Source: Tieghemiomyces parasiticus (Eukaryota; Kickxellomycota; Dimargaritomycetes; Dimargaritales; Dimargaritaceae). Taken from it: DNA of 64,000 nt. A model generated the notes under the pieces. The model was not told the DNA's origin and made no database searches. It saw nothing but the letters and a program-made list of their open reading frames with translations. Location: NCBI GenBank assembly GCA_027575765.1, contig JANBPT010000023.1, positions 1 through 64,000 on the forward strand, written 5' to 3'. Made by a program: the position numbers and the translations under genes. Positions 3,001-56,465 of this stretch are shown in pieces (position 1 is the stretch's first letter; each line of letters starts with the position of its first letter).

Positions 3001-6000
3001 CCATTCTTGCATGTAAAATCGTCCTGCACATCATGTTCGTAGCCCTTTTTGCATTAATATTCTGTATCAGAAGGTTTCTAGTTGCACTTCACGTCCACTA
3101 TCAAGTTTGGTGAATAATACCTTGGAATCATTGCGTGGGCCTTAACGACTCACCGGCGAATCTTCAGTTCAGGAGGTAGTCCTTCTTGTGATGGCCTCTC
3201 TCTAGCGCCACCCCGCTGTTCACAGGCCAACCTTCCGGATCACATCTCACCTCCTTGTGGCTGCTTCCCTTCTACTGCCGGCGCCTTTCTACAATTTGCC
3301 GTGGTTCCCAATCTACATGGCGCATTATCCTATGCATAATCAGTGCACGTCATCCCTAAATAATTGAGTGGCCAGCAATACGACTCGGGCCCTAAATTTC
3401 TACAGACGTCAAAGTCAGGTATTGAGAAAGGGATGGTTTCGTGATGCTCAGGGAGTAGCGGAGGATAGCACACAACAAATGGATCGATAGCCATCGCTAC
3501 GGGACACCCCGAACTATAGATCCGAAACTCGGATGTTGAACCCGGTGCGGCACCCAACTGGGGCTGGTTTTGAGCGTAAGGCTCAACGCCTCATTAGAAG
3601 CACCAGATAACCTCCCCACATGGCACCAGCAGGCAGGGGGGCGACGAGGAAGTTGGGCCGCGGAGCGGAGGCATCCCCTGTGACGTTTCTATGTGGTATG
3701 TGTGGTATGTAAACAAGAGTTCGGCGGCCCGTCGGATTGGTACGCGGCTACGCCCTATGGCGTCGATCGCATCTGGCTACGATGGATTGGCCCCAACGGT
3801 CTACTAGCCATCGTCCCTGGATTACCATCGCTGGCCCTTGATTACCCGCCAGGATACCAGAAGCCAGGAATGGTTGAACCCATCGACAATGGCCCAAATA
3901 TTCACTTCTGGTGACCTTCTCTAGTCTTACACTGAGCCGTACGGTGCTTGGATCCAGAGAGGAAGGTGGTTTACATTGCTATCGGCGATTTAGACTTTGA
4001 AATCAAAGTTGTTTGAGCCAGTCGGCTTCGGCGGTCGCCTACGTCCGGACAAAAAAGGACGGTGAGCCTAACCGTTCTAGTCACCCGAGGGCCGTTCACC
4101 CGTATTTGTCGCGTACGCCAGGCGCGATCCGTCGAGCAGCGGGAAGCCAATGACATCAATGCTGCTCAGGGGGGAGGAGGGCGGACTCCAAACTGATTAT
4201 AGAGGTCGGAGATTTTAACACTGATAAAGCGACCGCGACAGGCTTTCATAGAAGGGGGTCATGAGGGCGTTTATTCCAGGCATTGTTGCCACAGCCGTTC
4301 ACACTCTTCATTCTCATTAACACATAGGGATACCCAAGTCGGCCCTGCGAGTTGACGACATTGAGGTCAGGTTTGAGGCATGTCAATACAACGAGTGATA
4401 GGGAAAAGAGACGGCGGAGTTGGGATCCCCAATTCATTTGCCGAGAGGATACGGATATGCCTAATGATACCTTATCCGGCCAGGGTTACTTGCAATGGCT
4501 CGGGAAGGTGAGCCGACTGGCCCTTCAACTAGGGGCCGGCTTTCCCTTACTATTTCCTTATATCTATACAGATTTATATTGGTTTACCAGTTCCGCAGCC
4601 TACCCCTTCCTCTCTACGAACGTAACCCCGGTATACCTTCCAACCTCTCCAATTTAGGCCGCGCCTCCCCCCTACTAGGGTGCCGGTGTTTTAAGAGTGG
4701 TTTGTACAAGTGTAGTCGCTCACCGTAGATGGCCTTGATACCAACGCGAAGTTTTTACAACCCACAATTCCTCCTCTCTACGAAAATCGCGGCCACCGAC
4801 ACCTCTTTGTTGGGACTGCAGTATAGAACAAAATGGCAGATGACGCCGTGCGTGTGTATGACTACTTCATCGTCCATGATGCGGACCCTCCCGCTAAAGC
4901 AGGCACAACTGACTTTCAACTTGACTCAGTGCATTGTCTCTCTCACCCTGCCCTACACTTACATAGCAGGGGGAGGATCGATGCTGAGGTCGAGTCCTCC
5001 ATGAATTCCACCAGGAATTGTAGTAAGTTTAGTTAAACTGCGGCCAAAAAGAAATACAGTTAGTTTTGTTATTATCCTCCGGACTAGGGACGACGGTGGG
5101 CCAGTAGCGCTGCGCATTTTACCAGCTCCAGGCAGGCAGGCCCTGGTCAGGAGTCGGTGAGTTTTTAAGTTATCGGGCGCCTGCCCCGCTCGGCCTGGCA
5201 GATCCCTACGAATTAACAATTGATAGTGAAGTGTAGAACATAAGGATCATCCTCCACTCTTTTCAATGAGGCTACATTCGTCCAATATCTTAAGAACTCA
5301 TGTTCAACTACATTAACCTCGTTGGCTATTGTATGAAGACCACAGCGCAAGGCTAAGGAATGACAGCGTAATTGATTGGCATAAGGCGACCGATGGGAGA
5401 GCCAACTACCGCCCTAAGTCGCTAGGCAACTTGGGGCTAACATGGTCAGTACGTTCATCACTTACCAAATTTAATGCAGCATACCCACGGACTGATATAG
5501 AATCGCCGGTACGGATTGTTTTGAATGCCCAGTAGCATTATCACTGTGGCCTCTTCCAGTCCATCGTGGTTTTCTAATTCCCGGCCTATCGCCAATCATG
5601 ACGGTGAAAAAGTCTCAGGCTTAGGGGATGGCTTTATGATACCCCATTAGAATTTCCCCGGTCGTTAATCTTTCCATTATCCCGGGAGTTATATAGCTAT
5701 AGCTGAACTAAGGAGACCAGTAGGGTGGGTATAGCTTGTGCCGTGGTGTTTGACAAGATGTGCAGCCAGTGAGGACGTCCGAGCTAGGGTAGAGGCTGAG
5801 GCTGGTGCTCGGGCTTATTGAGCTACGTTGTTAACCGAGCCGATTAGTCTGACAAGGGTTATACAACACGCTCCTCTCGTCATTGTGATTAAGCATAGCC
5901 TGGACTCTACCCGGTCTCCGAATTCCCTGTAAGTGCAAAGTAAAAGCTAGGGGCTCTAGCCCATGCCCTCGGACGGGGGGAAATGAAGGTCAAGTGATTG

Positions 6001-51612: not shown

Positions 51613-52738
51613 ATGACCGCGATGCAAAGGCCGTTCGTGGCGGTAGTTGTGCTTGTCTACCGGTCTTCAGACAACAAAGTCCTGATTGGTCAACGCAAAG
51701 GCGTCCTTGGCGAAGGTGGGTACAGCGCATATACAGACCCTAGCTGGTAGTGCACTCAGCTCCACGGCAACGGTCGAGACTGCGATTTCCCCCGAAGCAA
51801 ACTAACTCACCCGCCACCATTACGCGCTGGCCCCCTGGGGCACTTGGCCTAATATTATCTGAACATACGTGTCACTAGGGGCATGGGAACTCCCCGGAGG
51901 TAAGTTGACAGGCCCGGTTGGAAGGGTTCAGCTCTTGATGACCAAGCCTTCTCAACTGATTGACACGGCCAAGCTACGGTAACCTTATGGTCGGGTTCGT
52001 TTCATTGGCTTGCAACCCCCCATATGACTTCGCCGGGCTAATCCTCAACCACTAGGTTATCCTTGTTTACCTTCCCCGGTGTCAGGCTCTATGGAGTACG
52101 GCGAAACCTTCGATACTAGCTGCCAGCGTAAGTATAACTACCTGCCGGACCACACCGGAGTCTGCTGACGGAGCAGCGAGTGTAAAGAGACCAACTAGGT
52201 TATACCCATAGATCCTACCACTTTTACACCCGCCACTGCTACGTACCTTGCCTTATCGGTCACCAGGTGAGGTCAAAGAGGAGACCGGTCTCGACGTAGC
52301 GGGCATCCGGCTGGTGACCGCCAAAAACATTATATTCGAGCAGGCCCACAAGCATTTCGTCTCCCTGTTCTTCGCTGCGCAGTGTGTAGACGCGGATCCT
52401 GTCCCCAAGGTAAGTTTTGCCGGCTCTTGGCAGTAAAACCCTAATATGAGAGCGGCCCTGCACCACCCGCCTTGGCCACACGATGAGGACCAGCGTCAAG
52501 GAAGTGAGTAGGAGCCAATTATCTCGGACGACTGGTTTCGCAGCTAATTTACAAGCCCTCGATTTGCAACGCAATCCTAACTCAGCTTATGGAACCAGAT
52601 AAGAGCGGGGGCTGGGTGTGGACCTCGTGGTCAGAACTACGCGAACGAAAGTACAGCCCGCTGTTTGGTATCCTCAACGACCTGGTTGACGAGTACCCTC
52701 AGGGCCCTTGGTTGGCATCGTCGAGCGGCCCCGCGTAG
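51613..52738 (+). CDS. NUDT15-like Nudix hydrolase
   Basis: Small Nudix pyrophosphohydrolase, likely acting on modified nucleoside triphosphates. Exons 51613-51715, 51879-51899 (21 bases), 52086-52127, 52267-52409 and 52586-52738 are in phase; 153 residues. The Nudix box is complete: G42-x5-E48-x7-R56-E57-x2-E60-E61-x-G63 (GGSMEYGE, then REVKEETGL), and it is spread over three exons. KGVLGEGAWELPGG before the box and the EPDKSGGWVWTSWSEL segment after it resemble NUDT15/MTH2 and plant NUDT1 proteins. The start at 51613 follows C/T-rich leader. It lies 1.3 kb before the second Nudix-containing gene, in the same orientation. Substrate is not predictable from sequence alone. Confidence 0.93.
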
Positions 52739-54062: not shown

Positions 54063-56465
54063 ATGTCGACGATCAACGCCGCTGGGCTTGTAATTTTTCG
54101 CTATGAGAGGAACCAGCCCGAGTACCTGTTAATTAACGACGCCTTTAACCACAAGCGCCACTGGTGCCCGCCTAAGGGCCGCGTGATTGGTCAAGAAGAC
54201 GAGCTCAAGTAAGTACTACCTTCCGCTACACACACGGCCCGGAGACGTTGGCCAGTCTAGGCATGCTTCCCGGTCCGAGCTCCGCCAATGCGCAGTCACA
54301 AGCGTTGGTCGACGATCCGCTGGCTCGTTTCCCCCCTTATTAACCAGTTCGACATCCTGCGTGCTCTCCTCGTACACTCATCCTAACTATTAAAATTTCC
54401 TCTCTATAGGTGTGCCGTCCGTAGTAGTTTGGACGTGGTTGGCCTCGCCATCCAGGACCTTCAAGTCGACGACCAGTTCGCCGCCAACCTCAAGTACCTC
54501 TCCGGCACTCAGGCCAAGCATGTGGCCTACTATCTTGCCCGCCTGGTGGACCCCCACCGGGTGCTGCGCATTGGAGCCGGCCTCAACCACTGCTGGTTGC
54601 CCCTTGCCCCGGCTTTGGACAAGGCTGCCTACCCCAATATGCAAGACGTGCTGAACCAGGCCCATGCCTACCTCTTGCAACACCGCGACCGTTTCACCAC
54701 CCCCTCCCCGCGTACCCGCCCGGATCCCGCCAACGGTCGTAGCGAAGAGCCCCGCCGTGTCTACCGCCCGCCCCACCAGCGTCAGTCGACCGATGAAGGT
54801 TCTCCGCGCGGTCCCGGTACGGAATCCCCCTCTGAACCCGATGCCGAGATCAATCGAGGCTACCGGCGTTACAGCCGCGGCGAGGACAGCAGTACCGGAA
54901 GCGGGATGTACCGTCCGCCTCGCCAACACCGGGCCAACTTCGATCCAACCCACGAAGAGGATGGTGATGGACACCCGCTGCACAGCCAGATGCGTAACCT
55001 GCGTCTCAATCCCGCCGCGACTGGGCCTGATGCTGCGCGCTTAGGTTCCAACGGCCGGGGCCCGTCCCTGTCCGAGAGTCCCATCTACAAGACCCGCCTG
55101 TGTCGGACCTTCGAGATCGAGGGCGCCTGCCCCTACGGCCCGAAGTGCACCTTTGCCCACGGGCCTGAGGACCTGCGCGAGCGACCCCGGCCCCCGCCTG
55201 TCGCCCCGCAGGCCGGCGGTCCCTACCCACCAACCTCCGGAGCGGGTCCCCACCAGGGCCCTGGCCGTCCTTCCCCCTACGGCCTGACCGACCCGGCCAT
55301 GAGCCGTACCAATAGTCAGGGCTGGACCCACCCGGCCTTCGCCCGGCCCGCACCCACTGAGAATCCCTTGTTCAAGACCCGTTTGTGCGACAAGTTTATG
55401 CGGGACAACTACTGCCCCTACGGTGACCGTTGCACCTTCGCCCACGGCTACGAACAACTCCAGAACCGTCCAAACGCCCCGCTGGCGTTCTCAGGCCACG
55501 AGCACCAAGGCCCGCCCTACCATGGTGGTGGGGGTGGCAGTGCCGGTGGTTACGGTATGAGCAGCAATATGCGCTCTCGGGAGCCGATCCTCCTCGAACC
55601 GCGTACCCCTCTGGCGACGCCCACCTCGTTCCTAGAGCACGCCAACCGGCTCGCCACGGTGGCCACCGCGACTCCCGTATCCGCATCTGTCCAGCGGTCT
55701 GTGGACACCGAGCCCGCATCCGCTGCCCCCGCCCGACCGGCTACCCCACCGGCCTCAACCCCAGCGCTGGTGGAACCCGCGCCCCAGGAAAAGGGCCGCG
55801 GTAAGAAAAAGCACCAGAACCACGAGGAGGTCCAGCGTCGCCCGCGTATCGTCGAGGTCGATGCCAAGGAGTTTGCCAAGTTTGAGCAACCCCCGCCCAA
55901 GCTGCGCGAAGCGACGGCTGCGGCCAATTCTACCTCCGCGTCGCCCCGCGTCGCCCAGGACGAGGCCCTGGCGGCCGAGCTGCGTCAGCTCCTACCGAGC
56001 CCGCTCCTACCCGCTTCAGGCACCGCCCCGCCCAAGGCGTTGACCGCCCTGAGCAAGGAGGTGACCCGCTTCGAATTCCGCCACGATGTGTCGAAGCAGC
56101 AAATGTTCCACATCCTCATCCCGGCCCTCTTTGAACAGGGCGGCACTTCCACCGCCGCACCGACCCCGGAGCGGATCCAATCCCTGCTGGCCCACTACCG
56201 CCCGCTGTTTGCCGGATACCTCAAATCGCCTGCGGACCAACGTCTGCTGCTGAACGCCTGGGACCGGCACATCACAGCTCACTCGAAGGCCTGGCTCTCC
56301 CGGGCCGCCGTGGTCTTCAAGCTCAACTACGACCTGGATCTGGTCGACGAAGAGGTGTTCCTGGCCTGGAACGCCGAAGCGCTGGCCGACAGTGAGCTCA
56401 AAAAGAAAGTGGCTCCGTTCGTAGAGTGGCTGGCCACCGCCGAGGAAGAGGATGAGGATGAGTGA
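54063..56465 (+). CDS. Degenerate Ap4A-hydrolase Nudix + two CCCH fingers + W2 domain
   Basis: Exons 54063-54208 and 54410-56465 join in phase (AA|G) to give 733 residues. Residues 1 to about 145 match the asymmetrical Ap4A hydrolase (NUDT2) fold: AAGLVIFRYE, WCPPKGRVIG, then KHVAYYLARLV and NHCWLPL. Its Nudix box keeps G39, E45, R53 and G60, but the catalytic glutamates are S54, D57 and V58, so hydrolysis is doubtful. A disordered R/P/S-rich linker follows. Two TTP-type C-x8-C-x5-C-x3-H fingers, C280-H299 and C375-H394, each have the lead-in YKTRLC or FKTRLC and FAHG, typical of AU-rich RNA binding; they are 75 residues apart instead of about 18. After a linker, about 570-733 is a W2 domain ending PFVEWLATAEEEDEDE. 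Likely an RNA-binding translation regulator (inference). Confidence 0.92.

Follow-up and report, generated by a model that had tools for sequence, protein, structure and literature searches.

A conserved protein family of early-branching fungi that combines a degenerate NUDT2-type Nudix domain, two CCCH zinc fingers and a W2 domain

Results

A single gene in the window, by which we mean the whole 64,000-nucleotide stretch of Tieghemiomyces parasiticus DNA that was analysed, encodes a protein of 733 residues in which a NUDT2-type Nudix domain is followed by two CCCH zinc fingers and a W2 domain. What is new here seems to be a conserved, undescribed combination of known domains, one of which is probably a pseudo-enzyme throughout the family.

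The gene lies on the plus strand and is spliced from two exons. Exon 1 (54063..54208) encodes the N-terminal part of the Nudix domain, from residue 1 to residue 48 together with two bases of codon 49, and is identical to the deposited protein P0001. The 201-nt intron (54209..54409) begins with GT and ends with AG, has a CTAAC branch-site-like element near its 3' end, and splits the Nudix box. Exon 2 (54410..56465) encodes the rest of the Nudix domain, the linkers, both fingers, the W2 domain and the stop codon. Upstream of the ATG there are stops in frame. A protein database search returned IWQ60_000841 (733 residues) of Tieghemiomyces parasiticus, a fungus of the Dimargaritales within Kickxellomycota; this protein is 100% identical to the window protein over its full length. 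Together with Pfam and fold searches, this deposited protein confirms the claim of an earlier note on this DNA that the three parts are carried in one spliced frame.

A second copy of the gene is present on contig C649, and its splice donor and acceptor are identical to those of the window copy. Comparison of the two assembly copies reveals 0 non-synonymous and 6 synonymous differences in the Nudix part, and 17.5 non-synonymous and 36.5 synonymous differences in the whole gene (dN/dS 0.153), all of these being small counts. Many genes have a nearly identical second copy in the assembly, a pattern resembling that of an unphased diploid or of two nuclei; an example is the C510/C649 pair (L009 and L010), with 97% identity in the main exon.

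A read-through fusion with an upstream Nudix gene was considered and rejected. That multi-exon gene, on the plus strand at 51614-52738 (about 51.6-52.74 kb, splice approximate), matches plant Nudix hydrolase 1 PDB chains (E 1.6e-26) and NUDT15 and has an intact box, REVKEETG (EVKEETG after an exon ending in R), indicating that it belongs to a different Nudix subgroup from the fusion.

Related proteins were collected with searches that require shared 5-residue words. A whole-protein search gave at least 21 matches and two Nudix-region searches gave 61 and 26, for a union of at least 75 distinct proteins including the window protein. Two C-x8-C-x5-C-x3-H units are present in all 75, and the order Nudix, finger, finger, W2 is found within one protein in 69 of the 75, the window protein included. 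Nudix columns occur in 74 of the 75 (P0021 is without most of the Nudix part), a count that leans on the search because in two of the three cases the Nudix region was itself selected for. A family W2 profile detects the W2 domain in 70 of 75, although the 21 proteins from which the profile was built were bound to match; the five proteins in which it finds none are models of 395-513 residues. In an independent Pfam scan of 25 diverse members at E up to 0.01, zf-CCCH was detected in 25, W2 in 24 and NUDIX in 21. Across alignment A1, with 19 of its 21 rows used, mean pairwise identity is 0.59 in the Nudix domain, 0.77 and 0.67 in the two fingers, 0.46 in the W2 domain and 0.27-0.33 in the linkers.

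The named members come from Mortierella relatives, Glomeromycotina, Mucorales, Endogonales (Jimgerdemannia), Calcarisporiella, Basidiobolus, Dimargaritales, Coemansia and chytrids, with the higher groups assigned from the genera. No Dikarya or non-fungal name appears among the matches listed by the word-based searches; the family was thus found here only in early-branching fungi. Its spread over chytrids, Mortierella relatives, arbuscular mycorrhizal fungi, Mucorales, Basidiobolus and Kickxellomycota suggests that the Nudix-CCCH-CCCH-W2 family is probably ancient in fungi.

The Nudix domain of the window protein (54063..54698, residues 1-145, with the intron inside) has profile and fold matches of the NUDT2 / Ap4A-hydrolase type, and the earlier note was right to assign it so. 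Its box, GRVIGQEDELKCAVRSSLDVVGL (54177..54446, residues 39-61, with the intron inside), is degenerate and departs from the NUDT2-type catalytic box Gx5Ex7REUxEExGU with all of its glutamates. We aligned the Nudix rows of the family with the Ap4A hydrolases of human, C. elegans and Plasmodium, keeping weak rows in the counts: P0074, with a gene model that is scrambled at the box, P0065 and P0075, which have deletions there, and P0066 and P0067, which start inside the domain. The second glutamate of EExG in the REx2EExG box (human E62) is glutamate in 0 of 74 rows, and its position is occupied by I in 56, L in 6, V in 4, T in 4, A in 3 and S in 1. The RE glutamate (human E58) survives in 47 of 74 rows; Asn takes its place in 19 of 74, the named ones being Glomeromycotina, and Ser or Val in the four Dimargaritales. 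At the first glutamate of the EE pair, 53 of the 74 rows have E and 16 have D, and the SHEH-equivalent glutamate (human E110) is kept in 55. These three remaining glutamates are all kept in 32 of the 75 proteins, a Linnemannia copy among them. The window copy keeps none of the four, having S54, D57, V58 and, at the SHEH position, A105; P0002, P0003, P0004, P0018 and P0065 likewise keep none. Some Nudix enzymes are active with non-canonical boxes. Judged from its sequence, the Nudix domain is probably catalytically dead across the whole family.

Though probably dead, the domain is not decaying. Ligand-contact positions are kept in the family at Tyr82 (73/73), Lys89 (74/74), Lys42 (70/71) and the His of HHW (67/71), an aromatic residue (Y or F) stands at the human Phe128 position in 74 of 74 rows, and the window protein keeps H33, K38, Y78, K85 and Y123. 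In the Plasmodium enzyme, such residues have been assigned to phosphate and adenine contacts, and Glu130 seems to hydrogen-bond the adenine amino group (PMC4734340). At the human Glu130 position, however, all 74 of the 74 rows have S, T or N, suggesting that the base bound may not be adenine. The proposal in the earlier note that the Nudix part reads dinucleotide polyphosphates gains support, on grounds that the note did not give, from the loss of hydrolytic glutamates with retention of most ligand contacts; the change at the Glu130 position speaks against simple Ap4A binding.

Other Nudix genes in the genome keep intact boxes. In addition to the upstream neighbour, these include L001 (REVFEETG), the one locus that matched when a strict pattern was applied to 4 loci, and which we take to be Dcp2-like. 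A genome search with a human stretch gave no match to a stand-alone NUDT2; this weak search also missed the split Nudix exons of the window.

The two CCCH fingers lie at 55086..55166 (residues 275-301) and 55371..55448 (residues 370-395) on the plus strand, each with the lead-in KTRLC. Their best PDB matches include TTP and BRF2, and also MEX-5 (6pmg); the structure model has low confidence in the fingers. The earlier note had described them as TTP-type, and the C-x8-C-x5-C-x3-H form in tandem partly bears this out, but their spacing and lead-in differ from those of TTP. From the last His of finger 1 to the first Cys of finger 2 the linker spans 29-75 residues in the 75 proteins, and 75 in the window protein, against 18 residues in BRF2/TTP as counted in the 1rgo alignment. 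The lead-in is KTR or KTK in 150 of the 150 fingers and KTE in none, and the window protein is without the (R/K)YKTEL that marks at least finger 1 of TTP/ZFP36. In TTP and MEX-5, the lead-in position affects sequence preference, with Arg/Lys leading to looser, U-rich binding. By sequence, therefore, the fingers of the family are not a canonical TTP tandem.

Since the best zf-CCCH matches in the genome are those of the fusion gene, the fusion was considered as the only TTP-like protein of this fungus. This was rejected when a TTP query found a separate TTP-type tandem CCCH gene, L030 (contig C721 of assembly G000, 3414-3737, minus strand), at a single place in the assembly. Its finger 1 is split by an intron, its linker is 18 residues long, and its lead-ins are KTELC in finger 1 and KTKLC in finger 2. 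The presence of this gene indicates that the fusion is a distinct gene, with the lead-in separating the two at finger 1 only. A further tandem match on C224/C921 (E 5.9e-4 and 0.002) has other spacing and is without the KT lead-in; we presume that it resembles a DUS3-type pair.

The W2 HEAT domain occupies 55944..56447 on the plus strand. Structure prediction shows the W2 HEAT fold at residues 561-728 and the W2 profile also matches, so the W2 domain that the earlier note had claimed is well founded. An acidic C-terminal tail, TAEEEDEDE (56436..56462, residues 725-733), stands at and after the end of the last W2 helix, and the acidic tail pattern is found in 65 of the 75 family proteins. The 11 Pfam families matched by the window protein at E up to 1 do not include the eIF5 N-terminal eIF5/eIF2B domain (GAP), and at the same threshold there is no Pfam match to a 5MP-type N-terminal MA3-like HEAT domain.

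Besides the fusion, the genome contains a 409-residue frame (C1219/C995), a W2 exon on C741/C413 and a partial W2 on C693, which by eye we take to be eIF5, 5MP-like and eIF2B-epsilon, respectively. The family W2 profile scores these at 70.5 bits for eIF5, 33.0 for the 5MP-like exon and 22.7 for the eIF2B-epsilon-like sequence, the last score being lowered because the C693 sequence is partial. A PDB profile search with the W2 domain likewise ranks eIF5 first, and by sequence the domain is nearest eIF5. The fold-based W2 matches are to eIF2B-epsilon, with no eIF5 or 5MP among the best 50 listed, which does not count against either. A W2 tree with outgroups, unrooted and with weak supports, leaves the family unplaced. 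The lysine boxes in the tail of eIF2-beta are a shared binding site for the C-terminal domains of eIF5, eIF2B-epsilon and 5MP, and 5MP competes with eIF5 for them (PMC12224906).

Between the Nudix and W2 domains, the structure model has short helices only, mostly with pLDDT under 70. A conserved segment like KNLNIALPLDSQR is present in the linker after the Nudix domain in 38 of the 75 proteins (P0012, P0045 and others), and the window protein has a related segment, MRNLRLN, at 54990-55010 (residues 243-249). To judge from its conservation, this segment is likely a short binding motif. The first linker of the window protein also has two YRPP motifs, at residues 167 and 216, and YRPP or FRPP occurs at varying positions in 31 of the 75 proteins.

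Discussion

Since this three-part protein is shared by many early-branching fungi, it is likely a regulator of which messages get translated. We favor, at roughly even chances, a reading in which it is a cytoplasmic adaptor that binds mRNA and works in translation initiation, with the fingers on mRNA, the eIF5-like W2 domain docking, and the non-hydrolysing Nudix domain serving as a binder of a ligand or partner. The earlier note's suggestion that initiation factors are tethered to mRNAs is likewise an inference. The two CCCH fingers would bind U-rich or AU-rich mRNA and in this way choose messages. The W2 domain would dock on the factors that bind eIF5 and 5MP, namely the eIF2-beta lysine-box tail and possibly eIF3c, and start-site selection or initiation on the bound mRNAs would be tuned in the way that 5MP tunes it globally. 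For its part, the NUDT2-type Nudix domain would have given up hydrolysis and may modulate the rest of the protein by binding either a partner protein or a nucleotide (Ap4A, an NTP or a cap-like 5' end).

The finger matches to TTP and BRF2 would also suit a divergent TTP-like regulator of mRNA decay, in which the linkers recruit deadenylation or decapping factors, the W2 and Nudix domains are mere interaction surfaces, and initiation is no target. Such factors could be recruited by the long disordered linkers, in one of which 38 of the 75 proteins have a conserved ALPLDSQR segment. However, the separate TTP-type gene in the genome, with its KTELC finger 1 and 18-residue linker, may already fill the ARE-decay role, and we know of no role in decay for a W2 domain with an acidic tail, the tail pattern being present in 65 of the 75 proteins; we consider a decay regulator rather unlikely. 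A targeted decapping or NpnN-hydrolysing enzyme, whose Nudix domain still cleaves caps or alarmones via altered active-site residues while the fingers aim it at mRNAs, strikes us as distinctly improbable. Nudt2 can hydrolyse guanosine caps and pppRNA (PMC9283932), and the RE and SHEH-equivalent glutamates are kept in 47 and 55 of 74 rows, with three of the four glutamates kept in 32 of 75 proteins. Against this stand the absence of the second EExG glutamate from 74 of 74 rows, the further loss of the RE and SHEH glutamates and the Asp at the first EE position in the window copy, and the intact boxes of other Nudix genes in the genome, the Dcp2-like L001 and the upstream neighbour.

It is also conceivable, though we think it unlikely, that the same architecture works with a ligand-free Nudix domain that binds protein only or dimerises, making the protein a constitutive repressor or stringency factor like 5MP. 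Consistent with this, three of the four examined glutamates vary by lineage, as with Asn at RE in the named Glomeromycotina and Ser or Val in the four Dimargaritales, and protein-interaction roles are known for Nudix homology domains (PMC5389931). The near invariance of most ligand-contact positions would be unexpected without a ligand, although it could be structural. The initiation adaptor that we favor may be a nucleotide-gated switch, in which the dead Ap4A-hydrolase fold senses Ap4A or a related 5'-5' polyphosphate and controls W2 engagement with eIF2/eIF3 on finger-chosen mRNAs. This stronger form likewise has little more than an outside chance of being correct; if true, it would let a stress nucleotide act directly on message-specific initiation in early-branching fungi.

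In the initiation adaptor reading, a single polypeptide made of familiar parts would connect the choice of mRNA, the initiation machinery and a nucleotide pocket. Among the matches listed by the word-based searches, the family was not met in yeasts or other Dikarya, fungi whose translation has been studied. A pseudo-Nudix domain with conserved ligand contacts also makes a eukaryotic role of Ap4A testable by binding.

The earlier note knew of no described protein combining the three domains. This fits our literature search, most subscription papers lying outside it, which found no paper combining Nudix, CCCH and 'W2 domain', but the combination is itself widespread in databases (at least 75 proteins). 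Likewise, no description of the three-part protein was found among the listed matches from the W2/CCCH/eIF5, early-diverging-fungal Nudix-zinc-finger and fungal TTP literature; PMC11319710 and PMC6362508 mention the W2 domain, CCCH and eIF5 once each. Deposited members have the same three-part order under source-given names such as 'nudix-type motif 2' (Linnemannia) and 'Cth1p' (Rhizophagus). Automatic names of the former kind hide the combination in databases, so that the sequences are known while the family is seemingly undescribed.

Each part of the protein can be compared with a known system. With tristetraprolin / ZFP36 the family shares two C-x8-C-x5-C-x3-H fingers and a YKT-type lead-in, but it differs in having linkers of 29-75 rather than 18 residues, KT[R/K] rather than KTE, and extra domains. 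The fingers of C. elegans MEX-5 also have KT-R/K lead-ins and a longer linker, and to our knowledge MEX-5 has no Nudix or W2 domain; it is a match to the fingers in the PDB and not an orthologue of the family. We also know of no CCCH finger or W2 domain in CF Im25 / NUDT21 (CPSF5), which is among the Foldseek matches to the window Nudix domain (2j8q, 3p5t), with NUDT2 being nearer. CF Im25 is a catalytically inactive Nudix protein in an mRNA factor and binds Ap4A, although regulation of CF Im25 by Ap4A is termed questionable in the same review (PMC7705103). The W2 HEAT domain and acidic tail are held in common with the eIF5 C-terminal domain and 5MP/BZW, from which the window protein differs, by Pfam, in being without the eIF5 N-terminal domain and without the 5MP-type N-terminal HEAT domain. 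Finally, the window protein shares the Nudix fold of the NUDT2 subgroup with NUDT2 / asymmetrical Ap4A hydrolase (4ijx, 3u53, 1ktg), but it is without the catalytic glutamates and carries the fingers and the W2 domain in addition.
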